Source of the DNA: Micromonospora sp. WMMD882
GTDB lineage: Bacteria > Actinomycetota > Actinomycetes > Mycobacteriales > Micromonosporaceae
Reading direction: 5' to 3'
NCBI RefSeq assembly: GCF_027497255.1
Contig: NZ_CP114903.1
Coordinates: forward strand, 1,178,001-1,242,000
DNA: 64,000 bases
Below are positions 1,238 to 52,417 of the stretch, in pieces. The position numbers and the translations under genes were made by a program. Position 1 is the first letter of the stretch, and every line of letters begins with the position of its first letter. The notes beneath the pieces are model-generated. The model saw only the letters and a list, made by a program, of their open reading frames with translations, did no database searches and had not been told where the DNA came from.

Positions 1238-4200
1238 ATGCAGCATCCCGATCAGGCAGCATCCCGACACGATTCGCCCGCACCGTCCGAAGTAGAGGAA
1301 TGGCTGAGGGCGCGGCTGGCCGTTCAGCTCGGTCTGGACGCCGCCGGGTTGGACCCGCACGAGCGCCTCAACCGGTACGGCCTCAATTCCCTGCGGGCCG
1401 CCGAGCTCATCGCCGCGCTTTCCGGGTACCTGAACCGTCCGCTGCCGGCGACACTTGTGTGGGATCACCCGACCATCGACGCGATCGTCCGATTCCTCAC
1501 CGGCGACGCCGCGCCGCCGACCGCGTCGACGCCCCGCCCGACGGTGCGGGAATCCGAACCCATCGCCGTCGTCGGGATGGCATGCCGCTTTCCGGGAGCG
1601 CCGAACCCGGACGCCTACTGGCAATTGTTGACCCAGGGTGTCGACGCCGTCACCGAGGTTCCCGCCGACCGTTGGGACCTCGACGACTACTTCAGCCCGT
1701 CACCCGACGCGCCCGGCCGGATGAGCACCCGGTGGGGCGGCTTCCTCGACCAGGTCGACCAGTTCGACGCCGGATTCTTCGGCCTCGCCCCACGCGAGGT
1801 CGTCCAGATGGACCCGCAGCAACGACTGGTCCTGGAGCTGGCCTGGGAGGCGCTGGAGGACGCCGGCATCCCCCCGACCGCCCTGCGGGGCAGCCCCGTC
1901 GGCGTCTTCTGCGGAGCGATGTGGCACGACTACGCCCGCCTGGCCGGCCACCGCGAGGAGATCTCCCCGCACACCGCGACCGGGCAGGACCTCAGCGTCG
2001 TCGCCGCCCGGGTGTCCTACCTGCTCGGCCTGCAGGGCCCCAGCCTGGTGGTCAACACGGCCTGCTCGTCCGCGCTGGTGGCGGTCCACCTGGCGTGCCA
2101 GAGCCTACGCGCCGGCGAGGCCACGACAGCGCTGGCCGGCGGCGTCAACCTCACCATCGCCCCGGAGAGCACCGTGGCGATGTCCAAGTTCGGGGCGATG
2201 TCCCCCGACGGCCGGTCCAAGGCGTTCGACGCGCGCGCCAACGGCTACGTCCGCGGCGAGGGCGCCGGCATCGTCGTGCTCAAGCCGCTGTCCCGGGCGC
2301 TCGCCGACGGCGACCCCGTCCACTGCGTGATCCGCGGCTCCGCGGTCAACAACGACGGCTTCAGCAACGGTCTCACCGCGCCCAACCCGCAGGCGCAGGT
2401 GGCGATGCTCCAGGCCGCCTACGACCGCGCCGGCGTGCCGCCCGAGCGGGTCCACTACGTGGAGACCCACGGCACCGGCACCATGCTCGGCGACCCGATC
2501 GAGGCCAACGCGATCGGCGCGGTGCTGGGCGCGAACCGGGCCGCGGACCGGCCGCTGACCATCGGCTCGGTCAAGACCAACATCGGGCACCTGGAGGCCG
2601 CCGCCGGCATCGCCGGACTGATCAAGACGGTCCTCGCCGTCCGGCACCGGACCATCCCGCCGAACCTGCACTTCACCCGGCCGAACCCGCACATCCCCTT
2701 CGACCGGATCAACCTGCGGGTGCCGCAGACCGTCGAGCCGTGGCCCTGCCCGCAGGAGCGGGCGCTGGCCGGGGTGAGCGCCTTCGGCTTCGGCGGGACG
2801 AACTGCCACGTCGTGCTGGAGGGGACCACCGCGCAGCCGACCAGCCTGCTGCCGCTGTCCGCGCCCGACCCCGGCACGCTGCGCGGGCTCGCCCAGGCCG
2901 TACGGGAGGCGGCCACCACCACGCGGTCGCTGCCCGACCTGTGCTGGAGCGCCGCCGACCGGTACGCGCGCCGGCACCCGTACCGCCTGGCGTTGCCCGC
3001 CCGCACCCGCGAGGAGCTGGTGACCGGGCTCGACCAGTGGCTCGCCGCCGCCCCCACCACCGACCCGTCGCCGTCCGTCCCGCCCCGGGTGGTCTTCGTG
3101 TTTCCGGGTCAGGGTGGTCAGTGGGTGGGGATGGGGCGGGAGTTGGCGCGGTCGGAGCCGGTGTTTCGGGGGGTGTTGGTGGAGTGTGCGGCGGTGTTCG
3201 GGGAGTTTGTGGAGTGGTCGTTGCTGGATGTGGTGGAGGGTGGGTCGGTTCCTGAGGGGATCGATGTGGTGCAGCCGGTGTTGTTCGCGGTGCAGGTGGG
3301 GTTGGCGGCGTTGTGGCGGTCGTGGGGGGTGGAGCCGGCGGCGGTGGTGGGGCATTCGATGGGTGAGGTGGCGGCGGCGTGTGTGGCGGGGGTGTTGTCG
3401 TTGTCGGACGCGGCTCGGGTGATCTGTGTGCGGTCGGGGTTGTTGCGGGGGATTTCGGGTCGTGGGGCGATGGCGGTGGTGGAGTTGGGCGCGGGTGAGG
3501 TGGAGGAGGTGGTGGCGTCGTTTGGTGGTGCGGTGGTGGTGGCGGCGTGGAACGGGCCGGTGACGACGGTGGTGGCGGGGTCGTCGGAGGCGGTGGACGA
3601 GGTGGTGGGGTTGTTGTCGGCGCGGGGGGTGTTCGCGCGGCGGGTGCAGGTGGATGTGGCGTCGCACAGTCCGCAGGTGGACGGGTTGCGGGGGGAGTTG
3701 TTGGCGGGGTTGGGGTCGGTGTCGCCGGGGGTGGGTTCGGTGCCGTGGTATTCGACGGTGCGGGGTGGGGTGTTGGCTGGTGGTGAGGCGGTGGCGGGGT
3801 ACTGGTGGGAGAATCTGCGGGAGCCGGTGCGGTTCGCGCCGGTGGTGGGGCGGTTGTTGGCCGACGGGTTGACGTGTTTCCTGGAGATCAGCCCCCACCC
3901 CGTCCTCAGCGCCGCCGTCGAGCAGAGTCTGGCCCGTCACCACGGGCCCGGCGTCACCCTCGCCTCCACCCGCCGCGACGAGGACGAACGCGCCGCGCTG
4001 CTCGACACGGTGGCCCGGCTGCACCAGCTCGGGCAGCCGATCCACTGGCCGGCGCTGTACCCGCCGGACGTCACGGCGGTGCCGCTGCCCCCCGCGCCGA
4101 CAGGACCCGTCAGCACGCCGGGCGACGTCGGCGCGACGCCGGTCGAGCCGGGTGACGGGGCCGGACCCGACGGGAGCGCGCCCACCGGGGACCGCCCCGA

Positions 4201-7200
4201 CGCCGGGGACGCCGTGCTGGTGCCGCTGTCGGCGCACACCCCGGCCGCCCTGGCCGAGCTGACCCGACGTACGGCGGAGCTGCTGCGGCGGCGACCCAAC
4301 ACCGACCTGCGCGACCTCGGCCACACCGCCGCCGTCCGCCGGGCCCACCACGGGGTGCGGCTCGCCGTCACCGCGACCTCCACCGCCGACCTGGCCACCC
4401 AGCTCGAAGCGCGGCTCGCCGAGGGGAACCTGCCCGTCGCGGCGTCTTCCGGCAACCCCCGGAAAGTCGTCTTCGTGTTTCCGGGTCAGGGTGGTCAGTG
4501 GGTGGGGATGGGGCGGGAGTTGGCGCGGTCGGAGCCGGTGTTTCGGGGGGTGTTGGTGGAGTGTGCGGCGGTGTTCGGGGAGTTTGTGGAGTGGTCGTTG
4601 CTGGATGTGGTGGAGGGTGGGTCGGTTCCTGAGGGGATCGATGTGGTGCAGCCGGTGTTGTTCGCGGTGCAGGTGGGGTTGGCGGCGTTGTGGCGGTCGT
4701 GGGGGGTGGAGCCGGCGGCGGTGGTGGGGCATTCGATGGGTGAGGTGGCGGCGGCGTGTGTGGCGGGGGTGTTGTCGTTGTCGGACGCGGCTCGGGTGAT
4801 CTGTGTGCGGTCGGGGTTGTTGCGGGGGATTTCGGGTCGTGGGGCGATGGCGGTGGTGGAGTTGGGCGCGGGTGAGGTGGAGGAGGTGGTGGCGTCGTTT
4901 GGTGGTGCGGTGGTGGTGGCGGCGTGGAACGGGCCGGTGACGACGGTGGTGGCGGGGTCGTCGGAGGCGGTGGACGAGGTGGTGGGGTTGTTGTCGGCGC
5001 GGGGGGTGTTCGCGCGGCGGGTGCAGGTGGATGTGGCGTCGCACAGTCCGCAGGTGGACGGGTTGCGGGGGGAGTTGTTGGCGGGGTTGGGGTCGGTGTC
5101 GCCGGGGGTGGGTTCGGTGCCGTGGTATTCGACGGTGCGGGGTGGGGTGTTGGCTGGTGGTGAGGCGGTGGCGGGGTACTGGTGGGAGAATCTGCGGGAG
5201 CCGGTGCGGTTCGCGCCGGTGGTGGGGCGGTTGTTGGCCGACGGGTTGACGTGTTTCCTGGAGATCAGCCCCCACCCCGTCCTCAGCGCCGCGGTGGAGG
5301 AGACCTGCCGCCGGCACGGCGACGTCGGGGTGACCCTCGCCTCCACCCGCCGGGACACCGCCGAGCGGCGGTCCATGTTGGACAGCGCCGGTGAGCTCTA
5401 CCGGCTCGGCGTGCCGCTGGACTGGACGGCGCTGCACCCGACCCGGGGCGCGGTGGTCCGCCTGCCGGAGTACCCCTGGCAGCGGGAGCGGCACTGGCCC
5501 GCCGCGCCGACCCGCGGCCGCCGCGCCGTCGGTCACCCGCTGCTCGGCGCGCACGTCGAGTCGTCCCTCGACCGGGACGCGCACCTGTGGACCACCGAGA
5601 TCGACCTCGACGCGTTGCCGTACCTCACCGACCACCGGGTCCGGGGCCAGGTGGTCGTGCCGGCCACCGCGTACGTCGAGATGGCGTTGGCCGCGACCAG
5701 CGAACTGCTCGGCACGCCGACCCCGGTCGTCGAGCGGCTGGAGATCACCCGACCGTTGGCGCCGTCGGCCGAGCGGGCCACCACGATCCAGGTGACCCTG
5801 ACCGGGCGGCCGTCCGGCGGGTACGGGTTCCGCTGCGCCAGCCGCCAACCGGACGAGGACGGACGCCCGGGCGAGTGGCAGGAGCACGCCCGGGGCGTCG
5901 TGCGGGCCGCCGTGGACGTCGAGCCGCCGACCGGACCCGACGACCCCACCGGACCGGACGCCGCGACGACGTCCAGCGGCGACGAGCACTACGCCGCGAT
6001 GCGCGCCCGCGGACTGGAGTACGGCCCCCGCTTCCAGGGGATCCGCCACCTGCGGCGCAGCCCCGGCGCGGTGACCGCCCGGATCGAGCTGCCCGGGGAC
6101 TCCCCGGCGTACCTGACGCACCCGGCGCTGCTGGACGCCTGCCTGCAGGCCGCCGTCGCCGCGCTGCCGCAGCAGCCCGCCGACCCGTACGTTCCGGTCG
6201 GAGTGGAACGGGTCGAGCTGCGGGAACGCCCCGGCACGGCGGTGACCTGCCAGGCCCGGCCACGGCCGGACACGCCCGCCGACGAGCCGGTCGCCGACCT
6301 GGTGGTCCGCGCCGACGACGGCCGGGTGCTGCTCACCGTCACCGGCCTGCGGCTGCGCCGGCTGGACCGGGGCGCGCCCACCGGCGCCGACCTGCTCCAC
6401 GAGCTGCGCTGGGAGCCGGCGCCCACCTGGACGAGCCCACCGGAGCAGGCGGACTGGCGCGGCCGGTGGCTGGTCCTCGCCGACCGAGGCAGCGCCCTGG
6501 ACGCCGCGCTGCGGGCCCGCGGTGGCGACTGCGTCGTCGTCCGGCCGGGGGACCGCTACCGGCGGCTCGGCGACGACGCCTACGAGGTCGACCCGGCCCG
6601 GCCCGAGCACCTCGTCGACCTGCTCGCCGAGGCGTTCGACGCGCAGCGACCCTGCCGGGGCGTGGTCCACCTGTGGGCGTTGGACGCCCCCGGCGCGGAG
6701 GACCCCGAGCGGACCCACCTGCTGGTCGCCGACAGCGTGCTGCACCTGGTGCGGGCGCTGCACGCCGCGCCGGGGGCGCAGCGGCCCCGGCTCTGGCTGG
6801 TCACCCGGGACAGCCAGGTCGCGCGGGCCGGCGACCGGCTGGGCGCGCCCTGGCAGGCCCCGCTGTGGGGGCTCGGCCGCACCATCGCCCACGAGCACCC
6901 CGACCTGCGCTGCGCCCGCGTCGACCTGGGCGCGGACCGCAACGGCGAGGACGCCGCGCTGCCCGCTGTCCTGCTCGCCCCGACCGACGAGCCGGAGCTG
7001 GCCGTACGCGGTGGGGAGCTGCTGGTCTCCCGGCTGGTCGCCCGGGCGGCGCAGACGCCGCCGGCCGTCCCGGAGCCGGCCGGTGACCGGCCGTTCCGGC
7101 TGACGCTGGACCGGGTCGGCACCCTCGACCAGCTCCACCTGCGTCCGTTCGACCCGGCCCGCCCCGGTCCCGGCCAGGTGCGCGTCGAGGTACGCGCCGC

Positions 7201-9325
7201 CGGCCTCAACTTCCGTGACGTCCTCAAGACCCTCGGCCTGTACCCGGGGGTGACGGAGTCGACGGCGCGTCTCGGCGACGAGTGCGCCGGAGTGGTGACC
7301 GAGGTCGGCCCGGACGTGACCGTGCCACGGGTCGGCGACCGGGTCGTCGCGGTGGCCGCCGACTGCCTCGGCAGTCACGTCACCGCCGACGCCCGGCTCG
7401 TCGCGCCGATGCCCGCCGGGCTGGACTTCGCCGAGGCCGCGACGTTGCCGATCGCCTTCCTCACCGCCGCGTACGCCCTGGAGCACCTGGCCCGGATCGA
7501 GCCGGGGGAGCGGGTGCTGGTGCACGCCGCCGCCGGCGGGGTCGGGCTGGCCGCCGTGCAGCTCGTCCAGGCCGCCGGCGCGGAGGTGTTCGCCACCGCC
7601 GGCAGCGAGGAGAAACGCGCCTACCTCAAGTCGTTGGGCGTACGGCACGTGATGGACTCCCGGTCCACGGCCTTCGCCGAGCAGGTCCGCGCCGAGACCG
7701 ACGGGCAGGGCGTGGACGTGGTGCTGAACTCCCTGGCCGGGGATTTCATCACGCACGGCATCGCCGCCCTCGCCCCGTACGGGCGGTTCGTGGAGATCGG
7801 CAAGCGGGACATCCACCAGGACCGGCCGATCGGTCTCGGGGAGTTCCGCCGCAACCTGGCGTTCTTCGCCGTCGACCTGGACGCGATGTTCACCGACCGG
7901 CCGGAGCGGGTGGGCGCGCTGCTGCGCCGCGTCGTCGCCCGGGTCGACGCCGGGGAGCTGCGCCCGTTGCCGGCGCGCCGGTTCCCGGTCGCCGCCGCCC
8001 GGGACGCGTTCCACCTGATGGAGCAGGCCGGGCACCTCGGCAAGGTGGTGCTGACCGTGGCGGACCGGCGGACCGTGCCGGTCGTGCCGCCCGGTGGCGT
8101 CCGGGTCCACCCCGACGGCAGCTACCTGGTCACCGGGGGCTTCGGCGGTCTCGGTCTCCAGGTGGCCCGCTGGCTCGCCGACTCCGGCGCGCGGCAGCTC
8201 GTCCTGGTCGGCCGGTCCGGGCCGACGCCGCAGGCCCGGCCGGTCCTCGACGAGCTGACCCGCCGCGGCGTACGGGTCGAGGCGCTCGCCGCCGACGTCA
8301 CCGACCCCGACCAGGTGGCCGGGGCGCTGGACCACGTGCGCGGGCGCCTGTCGCCGCTGCGGGGCGTGGTGCACGCGGCCGGGGTCCTCGACGACGGCAT
8401 CCTGCTGCAGCAGACCCCCGAACGGTACCGCCGGGTGGCCCGGCCGAAGGTGGACGCCGCCTGGCACCTGCACGAGCAGACCGCCGGCGAGACGCTGGAC
8501 TTCTTCGTGCTGTTCTCCTCGGTGACGTCGGTGCTGGGCTCACCCGGCCAGGGCGCGTACGCCGCCGGCAACGCGTTCCTCGACGCGCTGGCCCACGCCC
8601 GCCGCGCCGCCGGGCTGCCCGCCCTCAGCGTCAACTGGTGCCCGTGGACGTCGGTGGGCATGGCGGCGCGGCTGGAGCAGGGCGGCCAGGAGGCGCTGCG
8701 CGGGCTGCGGGCGATCGACCCGGAGCAGGGGACGGCCCTGCTCGGTGGACTGCTCGCGCAGGACACCGCCCAGGTCGCGGTGATGCCGTTCGACGCGGCC
8801 GAGTGGGTGGCGGCGTACCCGGCGGCCGGCCGGGCCAACCAGCTCGCCCGGCTCGGCGTCGCCGTGCCGGAGCAGCCGGCGACCGCCGGGGTCCGGGCCG
8901 GGTTCCTGGCCGCCGAGCCTGGCCGTCGTCGTCGCGCCGCCGTCGAGACGTACGTGCGGGAGCAGGCGTCCCGGGTGCTGCGGCTGGCCACCTCCCGGAT
9001 CGGCCTCGACACCCCGCTGCGGTCCCTCGGCTTCGACTCGCTGATGTCGCTGGAGCTGCGTAACCGGCTGGAGGCGGGCCTGGGTGTCGCGTTGCCGTCC
9101 ACCCTGGTGTGGAACTACCCGACGATCGAGGTGATGGTCCCCTACCTGGCCGGCCGGCTGGGCGTCCCGCTGGACCCGCCCGACGTCGCGCCGGCCGACA
9201 CGCCGGCGGCCACCGGCGGGGGCAGGGCCCCGTCCACCGACGACGCCTCCGGCGACCTGGCTGAGCTGTCGGTCGACGACCTGACGGCGCTGCTCGCCCA
9301 AGAGCTCAACGACCTCGACTCCTGA
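1238..9325 (+). CDS. PKS-1: type I PKS, ACP-KS-AT-AT-DH-ER-KR-ACP
   Basis: Modular polyketide synthase of 2695 residues and probably the first protein of the line. Domains: N-terminal ACP (phosphopantetheine Ser51 in GLNSL), KS about 105-530 (Cys276 in NTACSS, His411, His451), AT1 about 618-892 (Ser707 in GHSMGE), AT2 about 1077-1351 (Ser1166), DH from about 1430 (His1466 in HRVRGQVVVP and a LLDACLQ motif), ER about 1958-2275, KR about 2290-2520 (YLVTGGFGG, LDD motif, so B-type predicted), ACP (Ser2601). Both ATs carry VASHS, close to the YASH signature linked to methylmalonyl-CoA, so a methyl-branched, fully reduced unit is predicted. There is no KSQ or AT loading module. The leading ACP must be charged by another enzyme, perhaps an acyl-activating enzyme outside the window. 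The ATG at 1238 has a weak RBS (AGGA, 7 nt upstream). Two identical ATs in one module are highly unusual. Confidence 0.95.
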   Translation: MQHPDQAASRHDSPAPSEVEEWLRARLAVQLGLDAAGLDPHERLNRYGLNSLRAAELIAALSGYLNRPLPATLVWDHPTIDAIVRFLTGDAAPPTASTPRPTVRESEPIAVVGMACRFPGAPNPDAYWQLLTQGVDAVTEVPADRWDLDDYFSPSPDAPGRMSTRWGGFLDQVDQFDAGFFGLAPREVVQMDPQQRLVLELAWEALEDAGIPPTALRGSPVGVFCGAMWHDYARLAGHREEISPHTATGQDLSVVAARVSYLLGLQGPSLVVNTACSSALVAVHLACQSLRAGEATTALAGGVNLTIAPESTVAMSKFGAMSPDGRSKAFDARANGYVRGEGAGIVVLKPLSRALADGDPVHCVIRGSAVNNDGFSNGLTAPNPQAQVAMLQAAYDRAGVPPERVHYVETHGTGTMLGDPIEANAIGAVLGANRAADRPLTIGSVKTNIGHLEAAAGIAGLIKTVLAVRHRTIPPNLHFTRPNPHIPFDRINLRVPQTVEPWPCPQERALAGVSAFGFGGTNCHVVLEGTTAQPTSLLPLSAPDPGTLRGLAQAVREAATTTRSLPDLCWSAADRYARRHPYRLALPARTREELVTGLDQWLAAAPTTDPSPSVPPRVVFVFPGQGGQWVGMGRELARSEPVFRGVLVECAAVFGEFVEWSLLDVVEGGSVPEGIDVVQPVLFAVQVGLAALWRSWGVEPAAVVGHSMGEVAAACVAGVLSLSDAARVICVRSGLLRGISGRGAMAVVELGAGEVEEVVASFGGAVVVAAWNGPVTTVVAGSSEAVDEVVGLLSARGVFARRVQVDVASHSPQVDGLRGELLAGLGSVSPGVGSVPWYSTVRGGVLAGGEAVAGYWWENLREPVRFAPVVGRLLADGLTCFLEISPHPVLSAAVEQSLARHHGPGVTLASTRRDEDERAALLDTVARLHQLGQPIHWPALYPPDVTAVPLPPAPTGPVSTPGDVGATPVEPGDGAGPDGSAPTGDRPDAGDAVLVPLSAHTPAALAELTRRTAELLRRRPNTDLRDLGHTAAVRRAHHGVRLAVTATSTADLATQLEARLAEGNLPVAASSGNPRKVVFVFPGQGGQWVGMGRELARSEPVFRGVLVECAAVFGEFVEWSLLDVVEGGSVPEGIDVVQPVLFAVQVGLAALWRSWGVEPAAVVGHSMGEVAAACVAGVLSLSDAARVICVRSGLLRGISGRGAMAVVELGAGEVEEVVASFGGAVVVAAWNGPVTTVVAGSSEAVDEVVGLLSARGVFARRVQVDVASHSPQVDGLRGELLAGLGSVSPGVGSVPWYSTVRGGVLAGGEAVAGYWWENLREPVRFAPVVGRLLADGLTCFLEISPHPVLSAAVEETCRRHGDVGVTLASTRRDTAERRSMLDSAGELYRLGVPLDWTALHPTRGAVVRLPEYPWQRERHWPAAPTRGRRAVGHPLLGAHVESSLDRDAHLWTTEIDLDALPYLTDHRVRGQVVVPATAYVEMALAATSELLGTPTPVVERLEITRPLAPSAERATTIQVTLTGRPSGGYGFRCASRQPDEDGRPGEWQEHARGVVRAAVDVEPPTGPDDPTGPDAATTSSGDEHYAAMRARGLEYGPRFQGIRHLRRSPGAVTARIELPGDSPAYLTHPALLDACLQAAVAALPQQPADPYVPVGVERVELRERPGTAVTCQARPRPDTPADEPVADLVVRADDGRVLLTVTGLRLRRLDRGAPTGADLLHELRWEPAPTWTSPPEQADWRGRWLVLADRGSALDAALRARGGDCVVVRPGDRYRRLGDDAYEVDPARPEHLVDLLAEAFDAQRPCRGVVHLWALDAPGAEDPERTHLLVADSVLHLVRALHAAPGAQRPRLWLVTRDSQVARAGDRLGAPWQAPLWGLGRTIAHEHPDLRCARVDLGADRNGEDAALPAVLLAPTDEPELAVRGGELLVSRLVARAAQTPPAVPEPAGDRPFRLTLDRVGTLDQLHLRPFDPARPGPGQVRVEVRAAGLNFRDVLKTLGLYPGVTESTARLGDECAGVVTEVGPDVTVPRVGDRVVAVAADCLGSHVTADARLVAPMPAGLDFAEAATLPIAFLTAAYALEHLARIEPGERVLVHAAAGGVGLAAVQLVQAAGAEVFATAGSEEKRAYLKSLGVRHVMDSRSTAFAEQVRAETDGQGVDVVLNSLAGDFITHGIAALAPYGRFVEIGKRDIHQDRPIGLGEFRRNLAFFAVDLDAMFTDRPERVGALLRRVVARVDAGELRPLPARRFPVAAARDAFHLMEQAGHLGKVVLTVADRRTVPVVPPGGVRVHPDGSYLVTGGFGGLGLQVARWLADSGARQLVLVGRSGPTPQARPVLDELTRRGVRVEALAADVTDPDQVAGALDHVRGRLSPLRGVVHAAGVLDDGILLQQTPERYRRVARPKVDAAWHLHEQTAGETLDFFVLFSSVTSVLGSPGQGAYAAGNAFLDALAHARRAAGLPALSVNWCPWTSVGMAARLEQGGQEALRGLRAIDPEQGTALLGGLLAQDTAQVAVMPFDAAEWVAAYPAAGRANQLARLGVAVPEQPATAGVRAGFLAAEPGRRRRAAVETYVREQASRVLRLATSRIGLDTPLRSLGFDSLMSLELRNRLEAGLGVALPSTLVWNYPTIEVMVPYLAGRLGVPLDPPDVAPADTPAATGGGRAPSTDDASGDLAELSVDDLTALLAQELNDLDS
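3092..3915 (+). repeat. AT repeat of PKS-1, copy 1
   Basis: This 824-bp stretch encodes AT1 and appears identical to 4469-5292 (offset 1377 bp, in frame). Identity stops abruptly at both ends: g versus c at 3091/4468 and c versus g at 3916/5293. Codons are G/T-rich (GTG, TTG, GCG, GGG) and clearly unlike the C-rich codons on either side. Confidence 0.93.
4469..5292 (+). repeat. AT repeat of PKS-1, copy 2
   Basis: Second copy of the 824-bp AT block, encoding AT2. The 553 bp between the copies is unique. It encodes a post-AT region, then a Pro/Gly-rich stretch, then a second KS-to-AT linker-type domain (beginning LVPLSAHTPAAL). AT2 therefore has its own linker, as if a bimodular ancestor had lost the domains in between or the linker-AT unit had been duplicated. 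Confidence 0.93.
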
Positions 9326-9344
9326 CGGCCGACAAGGAACGGAC

Positions 9345-12300
9345 ATGTCCTCAGCGAACCCCTCGGCGGCGACGCTCCAGCGCGCGTTGACCGCGGTGCG
9401 TGACCTGCGCGCCAAGCTCGAGGCCAGCGAGCGCGCCCGTACCGAGCCGATCGCGGTGGTCGGCCTGGCCTGCCGCTTCCCGGGCGGCGCGGACAGCCCG
9501 GCGGCGTTCTGGGAGCTGCTGCGCGGCGGCGTGGACGCGATCTCCGAGGTGCCCGCCGACCGGTGGGACGCGGACGCCCTCTACGACGCCGACCCCACCG
9601 TGCCCGGCCGGGTCACCAGCCGCTGGGGCGGTTTCCTGGACCGGATCGACCGGTTCGACGCGTCCTTCTTCGGCATCTCCCCCCGGGAGGCCGACCAGAT
9701 GGACCCGCAGCAGCGGATCATGCTGGAGGTGGCCTGGGAGGCGCTGGAGAGCGCCGGCCAGACCACCGGACGGCTGGCCGGCAGCCCGACCGGCGTCTTC
9801 GTCGGCGTGCACAGCCACAGCAACGACTACACGTGGCTCCAGTTCGCCGACCCCGAGCAGATCGACACGTACACCGGCACCGGCACCTCGCACAGCGTGA
9901 TCGCCGGCCGGATCTCGTACCTGCTCGACCTGCGCGGCCCGAGCGTCGCCCTGGACACCGCCTGCTCGTCGTCGCTGGTGGCGGTACACCTGGCCAGCCA
10001 GAGTCTGCGCGCCGGGGAGTGCCGTACCGCCCTGGCCGGCGGGGTGAACCTGGCGCTGGGTCCGCATTTCACCATGGCCACCAGCAAGATGCGGATGATG
10101 GCCGCCGACGGCCGGTGCAAGACCTTCGACGCCACCGCCGACGGGTTCGTCCGGGGCGAGGGCTGCGGCGCGGTGGTGCTCAAGCGGCTCTCCGACGCCC
10201 GCGCCGACGGTGATCCGGTCCTCGCGGTGCTACGCGGCTCGGCGGTCAACCAGGACGGCCGGACCAACGGCCTGACCGCGCCGAGCGGCCGCTCCCAGCA
10301 GCGCATCGTCGCGCAGGCGCTGCGTAACGCGGGCGTCGACCCGGCGCAGGTGGGCGCGGTCGAGGCCCACGGCACCGGTACGGCCCTCGGCGACCCGATC
10401 GAGATCGAGGCGCTGACCGAGGCGCTCGGCCCGGCGACCCCGGACAGCCGGCCGGTCGCGCTCAGCTCGGTCAAGACCAACATCGGCCACCTGGAGGCCG
10501 CCGCCGGCATCGCGGGCCTGATCAAGGTGGTGCTGTCGCTGCGGCACGAGGCGATCCCCGCGCACCTGCACTTCCGGACGTTGAACCCGAACGCCTCGCT
10601 GACCGGGTCGCGGTTCGTCGTGCCGACCGAGCTGCGGCCCTGGCCCCGGGGCGAGTGGCCCCGGATCGCCACGGTCAGCTCGTTCGGCTGGTCCGGCACC
10701 AACGGCTGTCTGGTGGTCGAGGAGGCCCCCGCCGAGAGCGGGGCCGTCGGTTCCGGGGCCGTCGGCTCTGACGTCGCCGGCGCTGAGGCCGCCGGAGCTG
10801 ACGCCGGCCGGGTGGAGCTGCTGCCGCTGTCGGCGCGCAGCCCGCAGGCGCTGCGGGCGCTGGCCGAGGCGTACCGGTCGATGCTGGCCACCTCCGACGT
10901 GCCGCTGCGTGACCTGTGCTGGACGGCCGGGGCGCGGCGCAGCCACCACCCGTTCCGGGCCGCCGTCACCGGCCGCGACCACGCCGAGCTGGCCGACCGG
11001 CTGGCCGTCCTCGCCGACGCGCCGGCCCCCGCCGACGCCGCCGCCCCGGACGCCCCGGCCGGCCCGGTCTTCGTCTTCTGCGGCCAGGGCGCGCAGTGGG
11101 CCGGCATGGGCGCGGACCTGATGACCCGGGAGCCGGTCTTCGCGGCCACCATGCGGCACTGTGACGAGCTGTTCCGGGCGCACGCCGGCTGGTCGCCGCT
11201 CGACGAGATCCTCGCCGCGCCCGAAGTGTCCAGACTGGACCGCACCGAGGTCGCCCAGCCCGCGCTGTTCGCCGTGCAGGTGTCCCTCGCCGCGCTGTGG
11301 CGTTCCTGGGGCATCGAGCCGGAGGCGGTGATCGGCCACAGCGTCGGCGAGGTCGCCGCCGCGTACGTCGCCGGGGCGCTCACCCTCGACGACGCGGTAC
11401 GGGTGGTCCACCACCGGGGACGGGTGATGCAGTCGGCGCACGGCCGGGGCCGGATGGCGACCGTCGCGTTGCCGCAGCCGGAGGCCGAGGCGCTGATCGC
11501 CGGGTACGGTGACCGGCTGGCCGTCGCCGCGGTCAACAGCCCCACCGGCACCGTGCTGGCCGGTGAGCCGGCCGCGCTGGACGAGGTCCTCGCCGGGCTC
11601 GCCGAGCGGGGCGTGTTCACCCGGTCGCTGCCGGTCGAGTACGCCTTCCACAGCCCGCAGCAGGCGCCGTTCCAGGCCCCGCTGGTGGCGGCGCTGCACG
11701 GGCTCACGCCCCGACCGGCAACCGTGCCGATCGTGTCCACGGTGACCGGTCGGCCCGCCGCCGACGGGGACTTCGGCCCCGCCTACTGGGCGCGCAACAT
11801 CGTCGAGCCGGTGCGGTTCGCCGCGGCGCTGACCCACCTCGACCCTGCGGTGGACACGTTCGTCGAGGTCGGCCCGCAGCCGGCGCTGGCCCGCCCGATC
11901 GCCGAGCACCTCGACCACCACGGCCGCGTCGGCGTGGTGCTGCCCTCGATGCGGGCCGGCGCGGACGGCCAGGCCACGCTGCTCGCCGCGCTGGGCGGCC
12001 TCTACCAGGCCAACCACGACGTCGACTGGGCGCGGCTGCACCCCGCCCCGGGCCGGTGCGTGTCGCTGCCCGCGTACCCGTGGCAGCGTCAGCGGCACTG
12101 GCTGCGCAGCCCGCGCCGACCGGACGGCCGGGCGGCCCGACCGACCGTGGCGGACGGCCATCCGCTGCTCGGGCGTCGGGCCCGGACCGCCGTGCCGACC
12201 TTCGACAGCCTGCTCGACGCGCGCGTGGCCTTCCTCGGCGAGCACCGCGTGCACGGCGTCGCGCTGCTGCCGATGACCGCCTACCTCGACCTGGCCCTGG

Positions 12301-18918: not shown

Positions 18919-19673
18919 CCGCCGTGACCAACATGATCGAGGTGACCGCCGACGGGTCGGGCATCGTCCGGCTCGCCGTCTGCGACCCGGAACGGGAGAA
19001 CCGGCTCAGCGCCGAGCTGGTCGACGCGCTGATGGCGACGCTGGACAAGCTGGCCGCCGACCCGTCGGTCAAGGTGCTGCTGGTGACCGGCACCCGGGAG
19101 GTGTGGTGCGCCGGCGGCACCCTCACCATGCTCAAGGAGATGGCCAGCGGCGTCTACGACGAGCGCCGCCTGCTGGCCCTCTCCGACCGGCTGCTCTCCT
19201 TCCCGGTGCCGGTGGTCGGCGCGTTGGAGGGGCACGCCGTCGGCGGCGGGCTGGCCCTGGCGCTGTGCTGCGACCTGACCGTCGCCGCCGAGGAGCGTCG
19301 CTACGCGGTCAACTCGGCCAGCATGGGGTTCGCCCCGGCGATGGGGTTGTCGGTGCTGCTGCCCGCCGCCGTCGGCCACCACGTCGCCGCCGAGATGATC
19401 TTCACGGGGAAGTACTACAAGGGCCGGGAGCTGGCCGACCGCCGGCTGTTCAACGCGGTCGTCCCCGGCGACGAGGTGCTCGCCCACGCCACCGACCTGG
19501 CCGAGCAGATCGCCGAGAAACCCCGCTACGTGCTGGAGCTGCTCAAGGAGACCCTCGCGCTGCCCAAACGGCACCTCCTCCAGGAAGCCGTCGCCCGGGA
19601 GCCGCTGATGAACCGGATCTGTTTCAACCAGCCCGGCAGCGACGCGCTGCTCGACCAGACGTACCTCAACTGA
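18915..19673 (+). CDS. Enoyl-CoA hydratase family protein, ECH2-type (first copy)
   Basis: Crotonase-fold protein of about 252 residues. In beta-branching cassettes ECH2 proteins decarboxylate the 3-methylglutaconyl-ACP formed by HCS and ECH1. Supporting features are CAGGT in the oxyanion-hole region, GHAVGGGLALALCCDL, and a GFAPAMG segment matching the TPGMG-like stretch of PksI/MupK-type ECH2s. I chose the GTG at 18915, which overlaps the PKS-3 stop as GTGA and has GGAAG 7 nt upstream. GTG 18924 and ATG 18933 are alternatives. It is clearly paralogous to 21734-22480: both share VVGALEGHAVGGGL and the ending region. Having two ECH2-like proteins in one cassette is unusual, and which one is the decarboxylase cannot be told from the sequence alone. 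Confidence 0.85.
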   Translation: MTAVTNMIEVTADGSGIVRLAVCDPERENRLSAELVDALMATLDKLAADPSVKVLLVTGTREVWCAGGTLTMLKEMASGVYDERRLLALSDRLLSFPVPVVGALEGHAVGGGLALALCCDLTVAAEERRYAVNSASMGFAPAMGLSVLLPAAVGHHVAAEMIFTGKYYKGRELADRRLFNAVVPGDEVLAHATDLAEQIAEKPRYVLELLKETLALPKRHLLQEAVAREPLMNRICFNQPGSDALLDQTYLN

Positions 19674-19696
19674 GCCGGAACGAGGAGAACACCCCC

Positions 19697-20944: not shown

Positions 20945-20949
20945 CCGTC

Positions 20950-22480: not shown

Positions 22481-22512
22481 CAGCACGACCCCACCGAGAA
22501 AGCGAGCGAGAC

Positions 22513-22761: not shown

Positions 22762-22790
22762 GCACATCTCGCGAGGAAGGGTTGCCCCCC

Positions 22791-29717
<6,927 letters not shown>

Positions 29718-38300: not shown

Positions 38301-41300
38301 GGCCGCTGGTGCTGCCGGAGTCCGGTGACCGTCCGGCGCAGACGGTCCTGTCGGCGACGGACGCCACGATGCGGCTGGTCACCTTCGACGACCCCGACTG
38401 GACCGAGTACGTCGCCGCCCGGCTCGACCCGGACGCCGTCCCCGACGAGGCGGCGCCGGACCTGGACGCGATCACCGGCGCCTGTGACCGCCCGCTCGGC
38501 GACCTCGACGCGTTCTACCGGCGGGTCACCGACGCCGGACTGTCGCTGGGCCCGAGTTTCCGCTGGCTCGACGAGGTGCGAGTCGGTGACGGCGTGGCCG
38601 TCGGCGAGATCCGTACCCCCGACGCGTTGGACACCGGCGTGCCGTACCCGGTGCATCCGGGCCTGCTGGACGCGTGTTTCCAACTGCTCGGCCTGAGCCG
38701 GCCGCAACCCGACGGCGGACTGGCGGTCCACGTCCCGTTCCGGGTGGACCGGCTGCGGGTCACGCCGTCGGACGGGACGGGGCTGCGGGCGTACGCCCGC
38801 AGCAGCGCGACCGGGACGGAGGTCGTGGGGGACGTGGTGGTCGCCGACCGTGCCGGCCGGGTGGTGGTGGAGCTGCGCGGTCTGCGGCTGCGGCACGTCG
38901 ACCCGGCCGCGCTGCGCCGCCCGCCGGCCCGCGGCGACGACCTGCGGTACGAGCTCACCTGGCCGGTCGCCGACCTGACCGCCTCCGCCGGCGTGGCCCC
39001 GGGCCGCTGGCTGGTCTTCGCCGACGCGGGTGGCGTCGGTCGGGAGGTGGCCGCGCTGCTGGCCGCCGCCGGCCACACCTGCGCCCTGGTCCGGCCCGGC
39101 GCGGCGTTCACCGTGGACGGCCCGAACGCCTACCGGATCGACCCGGGCCGCGCCGGGGACGTCGCCCGGCTGCTCGACGCGGTCGGCGACGCCGACTGGC
39201 GGGGCGTGCTGCACCTGTGGGCGCTGGACGGCCCCGCCGACCCGGACGTGGACCTCACGGACCTCCAGCAGGCCCAGCGGACCGTCCTGGAGAGCACCCT
39301 GCACCTGGTGCGGACCCTGGCGACCCGCAGCATGTCCCCCCGCACGTACCTGGTGACCCGGGGTGGGCAGGCGGTCGGGGAGCCGGCCGGGCCGCTGGCG
39401 TTGGCGCAGGCCCCGCTCTGGGGCCTCGGTGGCACGGTGGCCCTGGAGCACCCCGAGCTGCGCTGTGTCCGTGTCGACCTGGACCCGGGCGACGACAGTC
39501 CCGCCGGGGACGCGGCGTTCCTCGTCGCCGAGGTGTCCGCTGACGACCGGGAGGACCAGGTCGCCCGGCGCGACGGCCAACGGCACGTGGCCCGGCTGGC
39601 CCGCTGCGCGGTCGACGGCAACGCGCCGCTGGCGGTGCCGGCCGTCGAGTCGTACCGGTTGGAGGTGGCGACCCCCGGGGTGCTGGACCGGCTGGCGTTG
39701 CGCCCGGTGGCCCGGCGGACGCCGGCGGTCGGGCAGGTGGAGCTGCGCGTCCGGGCGACCGGCCTGAACTTCCGGGACGTGCTCAACGCGCTCGACATGT
39801 ACCCGGGTGAGGCCGGACCGCTCGGCCTGGAGTGCGTGGGCGAGGTGGTGGCGCTGGGCGCGGACGTCGCCGGCCTGGCCGTCGGGGACCGGGTGGTCGC
39901 ACTGGCCCCGGCGAGCTTCGGCAGTTTCGTGACCGTCGACGCCAACCTGGTCGCGCCGCTGCCGGCGGTCGTCGGGGACGCCGACGGCGCGACCATCCCG
40001 GTGACGTTCCTGACCGCCCGGTACGCGTTGGACCGGATCGCCCGACTGGGGCCGGGGGATCGGGTGCTGATCCACGCGGCGGCCGGCGGGGTGGGGCTGG
40101 CCGCGGTGCAGCTCGCCCAGGCCGTCGGCGCGGAGGTGTACGCGACGGCGAGCCCGGCCAAGTGGCCGACGCTGCGACGGCTGGGCGTCCGACGGCTGTC
40201 GAACTCCCGCACCCTGGCGTTCGCCGAGGAGATCCGGCAGTGGACCGGCGGCGCGGGCGTCGACGTGGTGCTCAACTCGCTGACCGGGGACTTCATCGTC
40301 GAGAGTCTGCGGCTGCTGCGCCCCGGCGGGCGGTTCGTGGAGATCGGCAAGCGGGAGATCTGGTCCGCCGAGCAGGTGGCCCGGCTCCGCGACGACGTCA
40401 GCTACACCGCGTTCGACCTGGTGGAGTTGTCCCGGGACGAGCCGGCGACGGTCCGGGCGCTGCTGGCCGAGCTGATGCGGCGGTTCGCCGACGGGGAGCT
40501 CCAGCCGCTGCCGAGCCGGGTGTTCGGGCTGCCCCGGGCGGTGGACGCGTTCCGGCACATGGCGCAGGCCCGGCACGTCGGCAAGATCGTGGTCAGTCAC
40601 GATCCGGTGGCGGCGGAGCCGGACGAGCTGGTCCGGCCGGACGGGACGTACCTGGTCACAGGTGGTCTGGGCGGTCTGGGTCGGCACGTGGCGCGGTGGC
40701 TGGTGGAGCGCGGGGCCCGGACCCTGGTGCTGGTCGGCCGCAGCGCCGGCAGCGACGACAGCCGGGCGGACGTGGCGGCGTTGCGGGCCGCCGGGGCGCG
40801 GGTCGAGGTGGTCCGCGCCGACATCACCCGGGCCGACGAGGTGTCCCGGCTGGTCGGCGAGGTCACCGCGAGCCTGCCGCCGCTGCGCGGGGTGTTCCAC
40901 GCGGCCGGGGTGCTCGACGACGGCATCCTGCTGCAACAGGAGTGGTCCCGGTTCGCCCGGGTGCTCGGCCCGAAGGTGGCCGGCGCGTGGCACCTGCACC
41001 GCGCCACCCACCGCCTCGACCTGGACTTCTTCGTGCTGTTCTCGTCGGTGGCCGCGCTGCTCGGATCCGCCGGGCAGGGCAACTACGCGGCCGGCAACGC
41101 CTTCCTGGACCTGCTGGCCGCCGAGCGCCGCCGGCAGGGCCTGCCCGGGTTGAGCGTCGACTGGGGGCCGTGGCGGGGCGCGGGCATGGCCGCCGGTCTC
41201 GACGACGACCGGCAGTGGGCGGCGCGCGGCATGGGCCTGATCGACCCGGAGCGGGGCGTCGCCGAGCTGGCCGCCCTGCTCGGGCAGCCCCGTGCCCAGG

Positions 41301-41876
41301 TCGGGGTGGTCGCCGTCGAGTGGGGCGCCTACCTGCGGCAGTACCCGTCCGGGCGGCGGCCGCCGCTGCTGGACGACCTGGCCGCCGCGACGGGCGTCGA
41401 CGCGGCCGGACCGGCCGCCGGCGGCAGCGACCACCGGGCCCTGGTGACCCTGCTCGCCGACGCCGCGCCCGACGACCGGGCCGACCTGATCGTGGCGCAC
41501 GTGCGGGAGTTGGCCGCCCGGGTCCTCGGGGTGGCCGCCGCGCACACCCTGGAGACCCGCCGGCCGCTCAACGAGCTCGGCCTGGACTCCCTGATGGCGG
41601 TGGAGCTGCGCAACGCGCTCAGCCTCAGCGTCGACCGGTCGCTGCCGGCCACGGTGCTGTTCGACTACCCGACCGTCGAGGCGCTGGCCGGGTTCGTCGC
41701 CGGGGAACTCGCCCCCGCCGAGCCGGCCGCGCCGGCCGGCCCGCCTCCGACCCGGGCCGCGACGCCCGCCGCCGAACCTGACCGGGACGCCTGGCTGGCG
41801 GAGATCGCGCAGCTCTCCGACGCCGAGGTCGAGGCCCTCCTGGAGCAGGAACTCTCCCCGTCACCGAAGGACCGTC

Positions 41877-41884
<8 letters not shown>
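35312..41884 (+). CDS. PKS-6: type I PKS, KS-AT-DH-ER-KR-ACP
   Basis: Single module of 2190 residues with an N-terminal docking helix. KS has Cys209 in TTACSSS, where Asp is usual before TACSSS. AT (Ser659, HAFHS) is the shared malonyl-type block. DH has [10 protein letters not shown], with Asp replacing the conserved Gly of HxxxGxxxxP, although LLDACFQ is intact. ER about 1448-1765 has [14 protein letters not shown] from about 1777 has [11 protein letters not shown], an LDD motif and the catalytic Tyr in [12 protein letters not shown] Ser2093. The predicted unit is fully reduced if the DH works. The ER is useful only if the DH (or another dehydratase) works, so the Gly-to-Asp change deserves attention. 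The gene starts inside the stop of PKS-5 (ATGA) and overlaps PKS-7 by 8 bp. Confidence 0.95.
36401..36568 (+). repeat. KS C-terminal repeat, copy in PKS-6
   Basis: Matches 30804-30971 over 168 bp, ending just after NPHI where PKS-5 reads ccctggg and PKS-6 reads gactggg. Confidence 0.87.
36653..38046 (+). repeat. Linker-AT repeat, copy 3 (PKS-6)
   Basis: About 1394 bp matching 26358-27749 of PKS-4, with the 3' part matching 31158-32461 of PKS-5. All three end at the post-AT signature FQRQRYW, directly at the next domain boundary. Confidence 0.93.
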
Positions 41885-46967
<5,083 letters not shown>

Positions 46968-46977
46968 GGAGGACCGC

Positions 46978-48105
46978 ATGCCGTACATAGTGGCCACCGA
47001 GACCAGTCTGCCGACGTACTACTACGACCAGCAGACCCTCGCCACGACGTTGCGGAAGTACTGCCAGGCGATCGGCCTGGACATCGACCTGGACATCATC
47101 GACAGCCTGTTCCAGAACACCCAGATCGACGGCCGCTACTTCGCGATGCCGCTGGACACCTTCTTCGACCCGCCGCCGTTCAGCGTGGTCGCCGCCCGCT
47201 GTGTCGAGGAGGCCGCCGACCTCTGTGAGAAGACCGTCCGCAAGCTGCTCGCCACGGCCGGCATCGCCTCCACCGAGATCCACCAGTTCACCTCGATGCT
47301 CAGCACGGTGGTCTCGGTGCCCACCGTGGACGCCATCCTGATCAACCGGATCGAGTTCGCGCCCACCATGAAGCGGGTGCCGATCAACGGGCTCGGCTGC
47401 ATGGCCGGGGTGGCCGGGCTGAGCCGGGTGGCCGACTACCTCAAGGGCCACCCGACCGACGCGGTCATCCTCCTCACCTGCGAGCTGGGCGGCACCGCGT
47501 TCTGGCAGGGCGGCGTGCAGGGCTACCTCCAGGAGGCGCTGGACCGCGACCTGACCGAGAGCTCCTTCTACACCGATCTGGTGTCGCAGATCGTCACGGT
47601 GGCGCTGTTCGGCGACGGGGTGGCCGCGACCCTGATGGTCGGCGACGAGCACCCGCTGGCCCGGCCCGGCCTGCCCCGGGTGGTGGACACCCGCTCCGGG
47701 TTCCTCCCCGACACGTTGCACGTGGCCGGGGTGGACGTGCTCGACAACGGCTTCCGCAACCGGCTCAGCGTGGACGTGCCCGGCCTGGCCAAGACCGGCC
47801 TGCGCCCGGTGCTGGACCCGCTGCTGGCCGACCACGGGCTCACCGTCGACCAGATCGGGCACTGGCTGATCCACCCCGGCGGCCCGAAGGTGCTCACCGC
47901 GACCGCCGAGGAGTTCGGGCTGACCGACGAGAACCTCAAGCTCAGCCAGCACGTGCTGCGTACCGTCGGCAACGTCTCCGGCCCGACCGTGCTGTACATG
48001 ATGGACGAGACGTTCTCCTCGTACGACCTGGCGCCCGGCACCTACGGGCTGGTCGTCGGGATGGGGCCGGGCTTCTCGCAAGAGGCGGTCCTGCTCCAGT
48101 GGTGA
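46978..48105 (+). CDS. Type III polyketide synthase (chalcone-synthase family)
   Basis: Protein of 375 residues. Type III PKSs are ACP-independent homodimers that extend an acyl starter with malonyl-CoA and cyclise it to a pyrone, resorcinol or similar ring. The catalytic triad is clear: Cys141 (GLGCMAG), His299 (WLIHPGGPKVL) and Asn332 (TVGNVSG), with the closing GMGPGF loop, at nearly the positions of chalcone synthase. The ATG at 46978 has GAGGAGG about 6 nt upstream, only 10 bp after the PKS-7 stop, and the gene overlaps the next P450 as GTGA. The context suggests it either uses the chain made by the type I line as starter or supplies a starter to PKS-1. The first seems likelier given its place after the TE module. 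KAS III is the alternative family but lacks this HPGG arrangement. Confidence 0.92.
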   Translation: MPYIVATETSLPTYYYDQQTLATTLRKYCQAIGLDIDLDIIDSLFQNTQIDGRYFAMPLDTFFDPPPFSVVAARCVEEAADLCEKTVRKLLATAGIASTEIHQFTSMLSTVVSVPTVDAILINRIEFAPTMKRVPINGLGCMAGVAGLSRVADYLKGHPTDAVILLTCELGGTAFWQGGVQGYLQEALDRDLTESSFYTDLVSQIVTVALFGDGVAATLMVGDEHPLARPGLPRVVDTRSGFLPDTLHVAGVDVLDNGFRNRLSVDVPGLAKTGLRPVLDPLLADHGLTVDQIGHWLIHPGGPKVLTATAEEFGLTDENLKLSQHVLRTVGNVSGPTVLYMMDETFSSYDLAPGTYGLVVGMGPGFSQEAVLLQW

Positions 48106-49478: not shown

Positions 49479-49504
49479 GCCGGGGGCGCGAGGAGATGTC
49501 CGGC

Positions 49505-50248: not shown

Positions 50249-51614
50249 CCGGCACCCACCGGGGCCGAAGGGCGTTCCGGTGCTCGGCAACCTGCCCGAC
50301 CTGGGCCGGGGCATGGTCGAGTTCATGACGGAGGCGGCCACGTACGGCGACATCGCCTCGTTCACCATCGGGCCGACCCGCAACTACCTGATCAGCAGCC
50401 CGGAGCACATCCACGACATCCTGGTGACGCGTCGGGACAAGTTCACCAAGGACCCGCACGACCTGCGGACGCTGGGCCGCTGGATGGGCCGGGGGCTGCT
50501 CACCAGCGACGGCACGCACCACCGCCGGCAGCGCAAGCTGGTACAGCCGGCGTTCCGGCACCGCCGGATGACCGGGTACGGCGAGATCGCGGTGGACAGC
50601 TCGTTGCGTCAGATCGAGCGGTGGCGGCCGGGCGAGGTGCACGACATGCACCACGAGATGATGAAGCTGACCCTGAACGTGGTGTCCCGGTCGATGTTCG
50701 GCAGCGGCGTCCCCGACGAGGAGGCGCTACGGGTCCAGCGGGCGGTGGCCGGCCTGCAGGACGTCGCCATCAACATCAGCAAGTTCGGCATGCTGGTGTC
50801 GCCGTGGCTGCTGCTGCCCATGCACCAGCTCCTCAAGCGGGGCACCCGGGTGCTCGACCGGGCGGTCATGCGGATCATCGCCGAGCGGCGGGCGGCCGGC
50901 GACGAGGACCGGGGTGACCTGCTGTCGATGTTGATGCTGGCGCAGGACGAGGACGACGGCAGCGGCATGACCGACCAGCAGGTGCGCGACGAGACGGTGA
51001 CCATCTTCGTGGCCGGTCAGGAGACCACCGCCAACGGGTTGACCTGGGCCTGGTACCTGCTGTCGCAGAACCCGGAGGTCGCCGGGAAGCTTGGCGCGGA
51101 GCTGGACGAGGTGCTGGGGGACCGGCCCCCGACGGCCGAGGACCTGCCCCGACTGCGGTACACCGGGATGGTGTTCAAGGAGGCGTTGCGGTTCTGCCCG
51201 CCGGCCTGGACGCTGAACAAGCGGACCCCGGTGGAGGACGTCGAGCTGGGCGGCTACCGGATCCGTCGGGGCAGCGGGATCTTCATCATGCCGTACGTGA
51301 TGCACCACCTGGAGCGGTACTACCCGGAGCCGGAACGCTTCGACCCGGAGCGGTTCGCCCCCGAGCGGGAGGCGCAACTGCCCCGGTACGCGTTCATGCC
51401 GTTCGGGGGCGGCGAGCGGATGTGCGTCGGGGCCGGCTTCGCCGAGATGGAGGCGAAGCTGATCCTGGCGACCCTGGCGCAGCGGTTCCGGTTCACCCTG
51501 GAACCGGACCAGAAGGTCGCGTTGAAGCCGCTGGTCACCCTGGCCCCGAAGTACGGCCTGCGGATGCGGCTGTCCGAGCGCGCCCCCGCGGCGCACGGGA
51601 AGGCGACCGTCTGA
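50241..51614 (+). CDS. Cytochrome P450 (second)
   Basis: Second haem-thiolate monooxygenase, 457 residues. The I-helix is VAGQETTANGLTWAW, the K-helix has EALRFCPP, and the haem loop MPFGGGERMCVG has ligand Cys395. The ATG at 50241 has AAGGAG 8 nt upstream and lies inside the end of the membrane-protein gene, so the two are translationally coupled. It is related to but clearly different from the first P450, so the two probably act on different positions. It is the last gene of the plus-strand polyketide run; a strong hairpin follows. Confidence 0.94.
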   Translation: MADRHPPGPKGVPVLGNLPDLGRGMVEFMTEAATYGDIASFTIGPTRNYLISSPEHIHDILVTRRDKFTKDPHDLRTLGRWMGRGLLTSDGTHHRRQRKLVQPAFRHRRMTGYGEIAVDSSLRQIERWRPGEVHDMHHEMMKLTLNVVSRSMFGSGVPDEEALRVQRAVAGLQDVAINISKFGMLVSPWLLLPMHQLLKRGTRVLDRAVMRIIAERRAAGDEDRGDLLSMLMLAQDEDDGSGMTDQQVRDETVTIFVAGQETTANGLTWAWYLLSQNPEVAGKLGAELDEVLGDRPPTAEDLPRLRYTGMVFKEALRFCPPAWTLNKRTPVEDVELGGYRIRRGSGIFIMPYVMHHLERYYPEPERFDPERFAPEREAQLPRYAFMPFGGGERMCVGAGFAEMEAKLILATLAQRFRFTLEPDQKVALKPLVTLAPKYGLRMRLSERAPAAHGKATV

Positions 51615-52297: not shown

Positions 52298-52417
52298 TCC
52301 TCGAAGCATAGGACGGTCCGGGGGACCGGCCGCCAGCAGCCTCGATCCGCCGAGGGCGGGCGCGTGGGGCGGGTATTCTCCACCGGGCTCCGGCGCTTCG
52401 CAATTTGAAGGGATTTG

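Follow-up and report, generated by a model that had tools for sequence, protein, structure and literature searches.

The window analysed here, a stretch of 64,000 bp from Micromonospora sp. WMMD882 (bases 1178001-1242000 of one 6.37-Mb contig), carries an uncharacterised Micromonospora biosynthetic cluster that combines a modular type I polyketide synthase (PKS) line with a type III PKS of the kind represented by CylI. As in the preliminary description of this DNA, open reading frames (ORFs) and Pfam/NCBIfam scans revealed a single plus-strand run at 1238-51614. It consists of 16 genes, which encode seven type I PKS proteins, a free acyl carrier protein (ACP), a protein similar to HMG-CoA synthase (HCS), one ECH1-type and two ECH2-type enoyl-CoA hydratases, the type III PKS, two cytochromes P450 (P450s) and a DUF4386 protein. 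We consider it probable that the type I line builds a chain with an HCS-dependent branch, that the CylI-type enzyme converts this chain to a 5-alkylresorcinol while a thioesterase (TE) serves in editing, and that the P450s oxidise the product. The logic of cylindrocyclophane biosynthesis, which had been proposed for this region, is well supported by the CylI-type enzyme, the order of TE and type III PKS, and the unreduced last module, all of which are common to the window and cyanobacteria. The earlier interpretation is thus supported in part, more strongly for the type III step and less so for the HCS and P450 steps.

A CylI-type enzyme behind an unreduced terminal module

By sequence and structural modelling, the type III PKS is of the CylI type and is predicted to form a resorcinol from a beta-ketoacyl thioester. 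Its best match in the PDB is CylI (8ysp, 385.6 bits), followed by Pks11 with 200 bits. An AlphaFold model computed from a 12-row alignment (predicted local distance difference test score, pLDDT, of 88.8) matched CylI with TM-scores of 0.94-0.96 at 46-47% identity, compared to 0.88 at 33% for Pks11, and the matched CylI entries include structures titled 'in complex with beta-ketoacyl-SNAC substrate' and 'with resorcinol product'. Residues Cys141, His299 and Asn332, which we take to be the catalytic triad of type III PKSs, are identical across all 12 aligned rows. Among the 16 genes, the type III gene has the lowest ratio of nonsynonymous to synonymous substitution rates (dN/dS) in all three comparisons with related genomes (0.051, 0.078 and 0.090; others 0.146-0.482), indicating that it is not a passenger.

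The type III gene directly follows the TE module, as had been noted before: PKS-G ends in a TE, and a gap of 10 bp separates the two genes. This TE shows 45% identity to its counterpart in the CylH-like protein of Anabaena azotica and retains the GHSMG motif; the gene names of the A. azotica cyl-like cluster were assigned by position, those of the CylC and CylK candidates also by Pfam matches, and are taken here as presumptive. When named genomes were scanned with two peptide patterns, a procedure that possibly left out genomes near that of the window, 31 type III loci were obtained (25 cyanobacterial, five proteobacterial, one myxococcal and none actinobacterial). In 24 of these the type III gene is preceded on the same strand, at a distance of 22-1434 bp, by a TE of this kind; all 24 are cyanobacterial, and the 25th cyanobacterial locus is cut off 244 bp upstream of its type III gene. 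PKS-G has neither a ketoreductase (KR) nor an enoyl reductase (ER) domain, which suggests that the line offers a beta-ketoacyl-ACP, the type of substrate present in the CylI crystal entries. A part of PKS-G resembling a dehydratase (DH) is recognised by the Pfam PS-DH model (42.5 bits, over the cut-off), and neither of the two DH catalytic motifs occurs in residues 901-1260. The CylH-like protein of A. azotica ends in KS-AT-ACP-TE (KS, ketosynthase; AT, acyltransferase), likewise without KR or ER. Based on what is known of CylI and CylH, we infer that the chain is handed over directly and closed to a resorcinol, and that the TE is an editing hydrolase and not the release step. An editing type II TE domain is reportedly part of the cylindrocyclophane type I PKS, judging from the title of a Chem. 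Sci. 2015 paper.

Conservation and distribution

At E ≤ 1e-60 the type III protein was detected in four of 354 genomes of the family Micromonosporaceae, including that of the window, and in two of the 44 genera. In an order-wide sample of 397 genomes it was found in the window's own genome, and two others contained matches at 41-43% identity. The three relatives, G176, G215 and G312, carry the run in collinear form at about 75-91% DNA identity, as determined from the 45 best pieces of at least 400 bp per genome. Each of the 16 genes is matched in all three, with dN/dS values between 0.05 and 0.48 overall, and this retention of gene order and content argues that the run is beyond chance; P450b of G215 is broken by a frame change. 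In G312, which bears another genus code, the similarity spans window positions 1223 to 51569. A search confined to the flanks and run without length filter gave, in G312, no match downstream of 51614 and a single match of 216 bp upstream (window -182 to 28), corresponding to the start of a tryptophan dioxygenase (TDO) gene.

Among 120 listed of 597 database relatives of the type III PKS, 14 are full-length at 68-98% identity, one of 300 aa shows 86% identity, and a further protein shows 55%. Cyanobacterial proteins predominate among the named ones of the next rows, at about 42-53%, alongside a few from proteobacteria, acidobacteria and myxobacteria. The corresponding list for PKS-G (120 of 7975 scored) contains homologues at 85-90% identity from M. 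pallida, Micromonospora sp. NBC_01699, M. echinospora and Micromonospora sp. B11E3, the last two at 85-89%; relatives outside the Micromonosporaceae, where named, are mostly from Streptomyces and other actinobacteria, with some from myxobacteria and two from cyanobacteria, at about 40-59%. M. echinospora, M. pallida and relatives are described, in excerpts of PMC5765111, to share clusters resembling those for feglymycin, gentamicin and herbimycin.

A type III tree was built from 48 rows: the window, its three relatives, 22 loci from the set of 31 and 22 proteins from the 120 listed; the very long row of a second type III enzyme of the genome was left out. The clade of the window (11 rows) received support of 100/99, the deep branch order was unresolved, and a single cyanobacterial clade was not rejected (p 0.45). 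The sequences lend no support to the cluster having come as a whole from cyanobacteria, though such an origin is conceivable. The second type III PKS, which is very distant, lies elsewhere in the genome (L001; G000:C1:5205903-5206370) and is possibly the conserved Micromonospora enzyme located near the origin according to excerpts of PMC11537254.

The HCS cassette and the module around it

The genes for ECH2a, HCS, ECH1, ECH2b and the free ACP occupy 18915-22761, and all five are present in all four genomes. The free-standing ACP is the probable acetyl donor ACP. The cassette is flanked by the two exceptions to a type I line that is mostly cis-AT, as the preliminary description stated: PKS-C has an AT and no ACP, and an AT is missing from the first half of PKS-D. 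The N-terminus of PKS-D is devoid of a docking-type helix, and the protein starts as KS-ACP. Its first KS reads GCSSS and HGVGT, as it does in the relatives; this KS and that of PKS-C are 87-90% identical across the relatives, the other KS domains 84-94%. The simplest reading might be that PKS-C and the start of PKS-D form one split module around the cassette, in which PKS-C would carry out the condensation and the first ACP of PKS-D (GMTSL) would hold the beta-keto chain for branching. Either KS of this module might double as the decarboxylase.

The type I line and the proposed pathway

With respect to extender choice, HAFHS, which we take to indicate malonyl, is the AT motif in PKS-D, -E and -F; VASHS occurs twice in PKS-A, YAFHS in PKS-B, YASHS in PKS-C and FASHS in PKS-G, those of PKS-A and -G being presumably methylmalonyl-like. 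The nearest solved relatives are of the tylactone/DEBS type for the PKS-A domains and CurL for that of PKS-C. The AT of PKS-G is 57% identical to the A-type ATs, and together with its FASHS motif this suggests that it may take methylmalonyl. AT1 and AT2 of PKS-A share 98% of their DNA over 892 bp, a tandem AT is present in all three relatives, and the two copies are 94-97% alike in protein within each of the four genomes; the tandem appears to be homogenised. The AT DNA of PKS-D, -E and -F is identical over at least 1044 bp, compared to 67-72% protein identity to the orthologous ATs of the relatives, which points to recent gene conversion within the genome.

In the proposed pathway, the starter would be loaded onto the N-terminal ACP of PKS-A (ACP0), which presumably takes it, and PKS-A and PKS-B would each give full reduction. 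Around the third step, at PKS-C and the first half of PKS-D, the HCS cassette would introduce a single beta-alkyl branch, probably a methyl group. The second half of PKS-D would leave a hydroxyl and PKS-E a double bond, PKS-F, whose DH motif is altered, would give full reduction or less, and PKS-G would leave the beta-keto group. CylI adds two malonyl units. The type III enzyme of the window would take the beta-ketoacyl chain directly from the ACP of PKS-G, add malonyl units and close the ring to a 5-alkylresorcinol, with a pyrone being less likely; if the AT of PKS-G uses methylmalonyl, a 4-methyl-5-alkylresorcinol with the methyl group next to the alkyl chain would be expected. Both P450s would then oxidise the product. 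The position of the branch, the choice of extenders and the substrate of the P450s are proposed more tentatively than the hand-over.

Two P450s are present in the run, in agreement with the earlier account. The nearest PDB entries of P450a and P450b (7wzl and 3dbg) are both titled 'putative cytochrome P450', and 3dbg is, as we assume, a P450 of the albaflavenone type. It might be speculated that the two P450s, with no halogenase or CylK, couple ring and chain and thus provide a second, independent route to a cyclophane-like or bridged resorcinol polyketide, an outcome that we regard as rather doubtful. In Hyella patelloides, too, the CylI-type gene is followed by a P450 gene (L015:6249-7514), whose product is 31% identical to P450a.

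Comparison with known systems

The cyl, cab and mer clusters for [7.7]paracyclophanes were compared by way of A. azotica, whose cyl-like cluster encodes a ligase, a weakly AurF-like CylC candidate, a CylD-like KS-AT protein with three ACPs, a stand-alone KS, HCS, ECH1, the CylH-like protein, CylI, a methyltransferase and a beta-propeller protein as CylK candidate. As in the window, a CylI-type PKS follows a KR-less TE module, and HCS, ECH1 and ECH2 belong to the cluster. In contrast, the window exceeds that cluster by about five type I modules, encodes two P450s, lacks a cluster ligase and a CylE-like KS, and differs markedly in its HCS. In other cyanobacterial clusters with TE and type III PKS, including mks of Microcystis, the TE precedes a type III PKS of 38-52% identity, and HCS is not nearby. 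The Ars phenolic lipid synthase receives its chains from a fatty acid synthase and not from a modular PKS, and Pks11, as given above, is 33% identical to the window enzyme. According to excerpts of PMC6274091, the Ars and germicidin synthases can take their chain from a carrier protein.

As of 2021, the paracyclophane type I to type III hybrid had not been identified in other phyla, as stated in an excerpt of PMC8086630. The preliminary description recognised no actinobacterial pathway with this set of genes. This has to be restricted, as type I/III hybrids are known from the family: kendomycin (ken/kmy; Streptomyces and Verrucosispora) is such a hybrid too, kmy stems from the same family, and its starter unit is the product of the type III enzyme (PMC8708025, in part; the word 'HMG' is absent from its main text), and, by its description in excerpts of PMC9967187, the orphan cluster pks/nrps-7 of Micromonospora sp. 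AKA38 may be likened to the window, with two type I PKSs (KS-AT-KR-DH and KS-AT-ACP) and a type III PKS. The window enzyme is not of the DpgA type. As had been suggested, the cluster may represent a new hybrid family; no match to a characterised cluster was obtained.

Weighing the evidence

Several observations weigh against the proposed pathway. The cassette had been called complete, and HCS, ECH1, ECH2 and a donor ACP are indeed present; a decarboxylating KS with a Cys-to-Ser exchange and a Trp-type acceptor ACP are not. None of the eight KS domains in the window carries Ser in place of the active-site Cys, which all of them keep, and none of the eight in-line ACPs has the DSIxxxxW motif that as a rule marks a branching acceptor ACP. 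In A. azotica, the CylE-like stand-alone KS reads AASAS, and the CylD-like protein has a motif of the type DSIVGVEW twice. Thus, in Micromonospora the HCS step may follow another course or take place on an ACP that would not be expected. In addition, the HCS proteins of the window and of A. azotica share 34% identity, compared to about 50-57% between that of the window and named HCS proteins of other cyanobacteria, Chloroflexota and myxobacteria (120 listed of 770). An HCS gene occurs within the flanks (up to 10 kb) of a single one of the 31 type III loci, that of A. azotica; when 13 of these genomes were searched whole, three contained HCS at E ≤ 1e-40, near the type III gene in A. azotica alone. 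From this identity pattern and this distribution, HCS and the CylI-type enzyme seem to have been joined in Micromonospora independently of the cyl cluster. Some metagenome matches of HCS and of the type III PKS lie on contigs of equal size (9218 and 5032 bp), a hint that the two are close together in further strains as a compact variant.

A TE was found upstream in none of the six non-cyanobacterial loci, and the type III clade of the window lies outside every supported cyanobacterial group. With the presumed A. azotica proteins as queries, in searches run without a positive control, CylC and CylK had no match in the genome of the window, nor, under the same limit, had CylK in G176, G215 or G312. 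By Pfam, the cluster yielded no AMP-binding match; the closest ligase that a search of the genome gave, likewise without a positive control, is 31% identical and lies about 1 Mb away. As these searches revealed neither CylC nor CylK nor a close ligase, the run is not a cylindrocyclophane cluster. The proposed pathway also makes no use of a TDO-kynureninase-methyltransferase set next to the cluster, which may be an old link to it or a separate pathway. Titles and abstract beginnings in open-access PMC revealed no paper on this cluster and no metabolite linked to it.

As to the head group, an enzyme of the CylI type that receives the chain by the same hand-over could lactonise it, with or without fewer extensions, to an alpha-pyrone. 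In the PDB, Pks11, which comes next after CylI among solved families, bears the name alpha-pyrone synthase, and small differences in the active site are described to switch type III products (in excerpts of PMC6274091). However, the nearest structures are those of CylI, one of them with a resorcinol product, at clearly higher identity than Pks11, and we therefore think a pyrone unlikely. It is improbable, in our view, that the enzyme instead acts at the opposite end of the line as in kendomycin biosynthesis, where 3,5-dihydroxyphenylacetate or -benzoate made from malonyl-CoA by the type III PKS, with the hydratases in the roles of DpgB and DpgD, would be loaded on the N-terminal ACP of PKS-A. 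Such an ACP is present, no starter-loading enzyme was seen in the cluster, kendomycin B is a type I/III hybrid of the same family (PMC8708025, in part), and the type III enzyme and the ECH1 ORF weakly match DpgA (139 bits) and DpgD (90 bits). Yet both scores are below the respective cut-offs of 425 and 400, that for DpgA by far, CylI is far closer, and two of the three hydratases pass the cut-off of the PKS ECH2 model. Starter synthesis would also leave HCS and the free ACP unexplained, PKS-A contains no ligase domain, and the position of the type III gene, after the TE module, matches that in cyanobacteria.

Normally, a terminal TE releases the finished chain. That of PKS-G could accordingly free the type I acid, with the type III PKS acting apart on a common acyl-CoA and the two being neighbours by descent; type III enzymes classically use CoA substrates (excerpt of PMC8086630). 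The type III gene is, however, the most strongly conserved of the 16, the adjacency of TE and type III PKS recurs here and in cyanobacteria, and a last module without KR fits the hand-over of a beta-keto chain, so that such a separation is very improbable. Direct transfer to the CylI-type enzyme with closure to a resorcinol remains the reading we favour.

Organisation of the gene run and its neighbourhood

The genes of the run are listed in Table 1; the free ACP was taken from the list of short ORFs. Inferred starts, with frames checked, are GTG for ECH2a, 20935 (GTG) or 20950 (ATG) for ECH1 and ATG for the DUF4386 protein, whose gene sits between those of the two P450s. Long open frames also occur antisense to the run, among them one of 2981 codons over PKS-D and PKS-E (26133-35078, minus strand), and are most likely by-products of the high GC content.

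Table 1. Genes of the plus-strand run, with positions in the window and supporting matches
Gene product	Position	Strand	Evidence
PKS-A, 2695 aa, ACP0-KS-AT1-AT2-DH-ER-KR-ACP	1238..9325	+	Pfam
PKS-B, 2254 aa, KS-AT-DH-ER-KR-ACP	9345..16109	+	Pfam, motifs
PKS-C, 938 aa, KS-AT without ACP, N-terminal docking-type helix, active-site Cys intact	16102..18918	+	Pfam, motifs, termini
ECH2a, ECH2-type enoyl-CoA hydratase	18915..19673	+	NCBIfam PRK07110, 248 bits (cut-off 215)
HCS, HMG-CoA-synthase-like, 415 aa	19697..20944	+	PF08540/PF01154; TIGR01835, 234 bits (under cut-off 360)
ECH1-type enoyl-CoA hydratase	20935..21759	+	PF00378; 26% to A. azotica CylG-like protein
ECH2b, second ECH2-type hydratase	21734..22480	+	NCBIfam PRK07110, 301 bits; 56% identical to ECH2a
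Free-standing ACP, 82 aa	22513..22761	+	ORF; PF00550; dN/dS 0.15-0.19
PKS-D, 2311 aa, KS-(no AT)-ACP then KS-AT-KR-ACP	22782..29717	+	Pfam
PKS-E, 1865 aa, KS-AT-DH-KR-ACP	29718..35315	+	Pfam
PKS-F, 2190 aa, KS-AT-DH-ER-KR-ACP	35312..41884	+	Pfam; DH motif HxxxDxxxxP
PKS-G, 1696 aa, KS-AT-(DH-like)-ACP-TE, terminal module without KR or ER	41877..46967	+	Pfam
Type III PKS, 375 aa, predicted CylI type, Cys141/His299/Asn332	46978..48105	+	
P450a, 459 aa	48099..49478	+	PF00067, 304 bits; nearest PDB 7wzl, 267 bits
DUF4386 protein, 250 aa	49496..50248	+	PF14329, 31 bits (cut-off 27.6); match in all three relatives
P450b, 457 aa	50241..51614	+	PF00067, 319 bits; nearest PDB 3dbg, 237 bits

A fatty-acyl ligase gene upstream of the cluster, as in cyl, was considered and rejected: the minus strand there (L003:17042-19945) carries TDO, kynureninase and O-methyltransferase-type genes instead, with a major facilitator superfamily (MFS) gene beyond. 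TDO, kynureninase and O-methyltransferase genes also adjoin the cluster in G176 and G215, and in G312 the first 44 codons of TDO alone remain beside it. We placed the set outside the core, as G312 does without it; the TDO remnant indicates that the set once stood there in the ancestry of G312. Directly after P450b, G176 and G215 contain about 9 kb of other DNA, which in G176, the genome in which it was scanned by Pfam, encodes GntR-, TctA-, DHDPS- and fucose-isomerase-like proteins. In the window, an Opp/Dpp-type ABC transporter is encoded directly downstream (52405-56935), which is not at that place in G176 or G215. Neither this transporter nor the 9 kb of other DNA was counted as part of the cluster.

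Implications

A hand-over from a type I to a type III PKS, so far known from cyanobacteria, appears to stand conserved in cultivable Micromonospora species, where it would be served by a much longer modular line and accompanied by a distantly related HCS cassette. The pair of TE and CylI-type enzyme looks like a movable chain-ending unit. Micromonospora may thus offer genetically workable strains for studies on this hand-over, and the cluster points to a class of products that has not been described.

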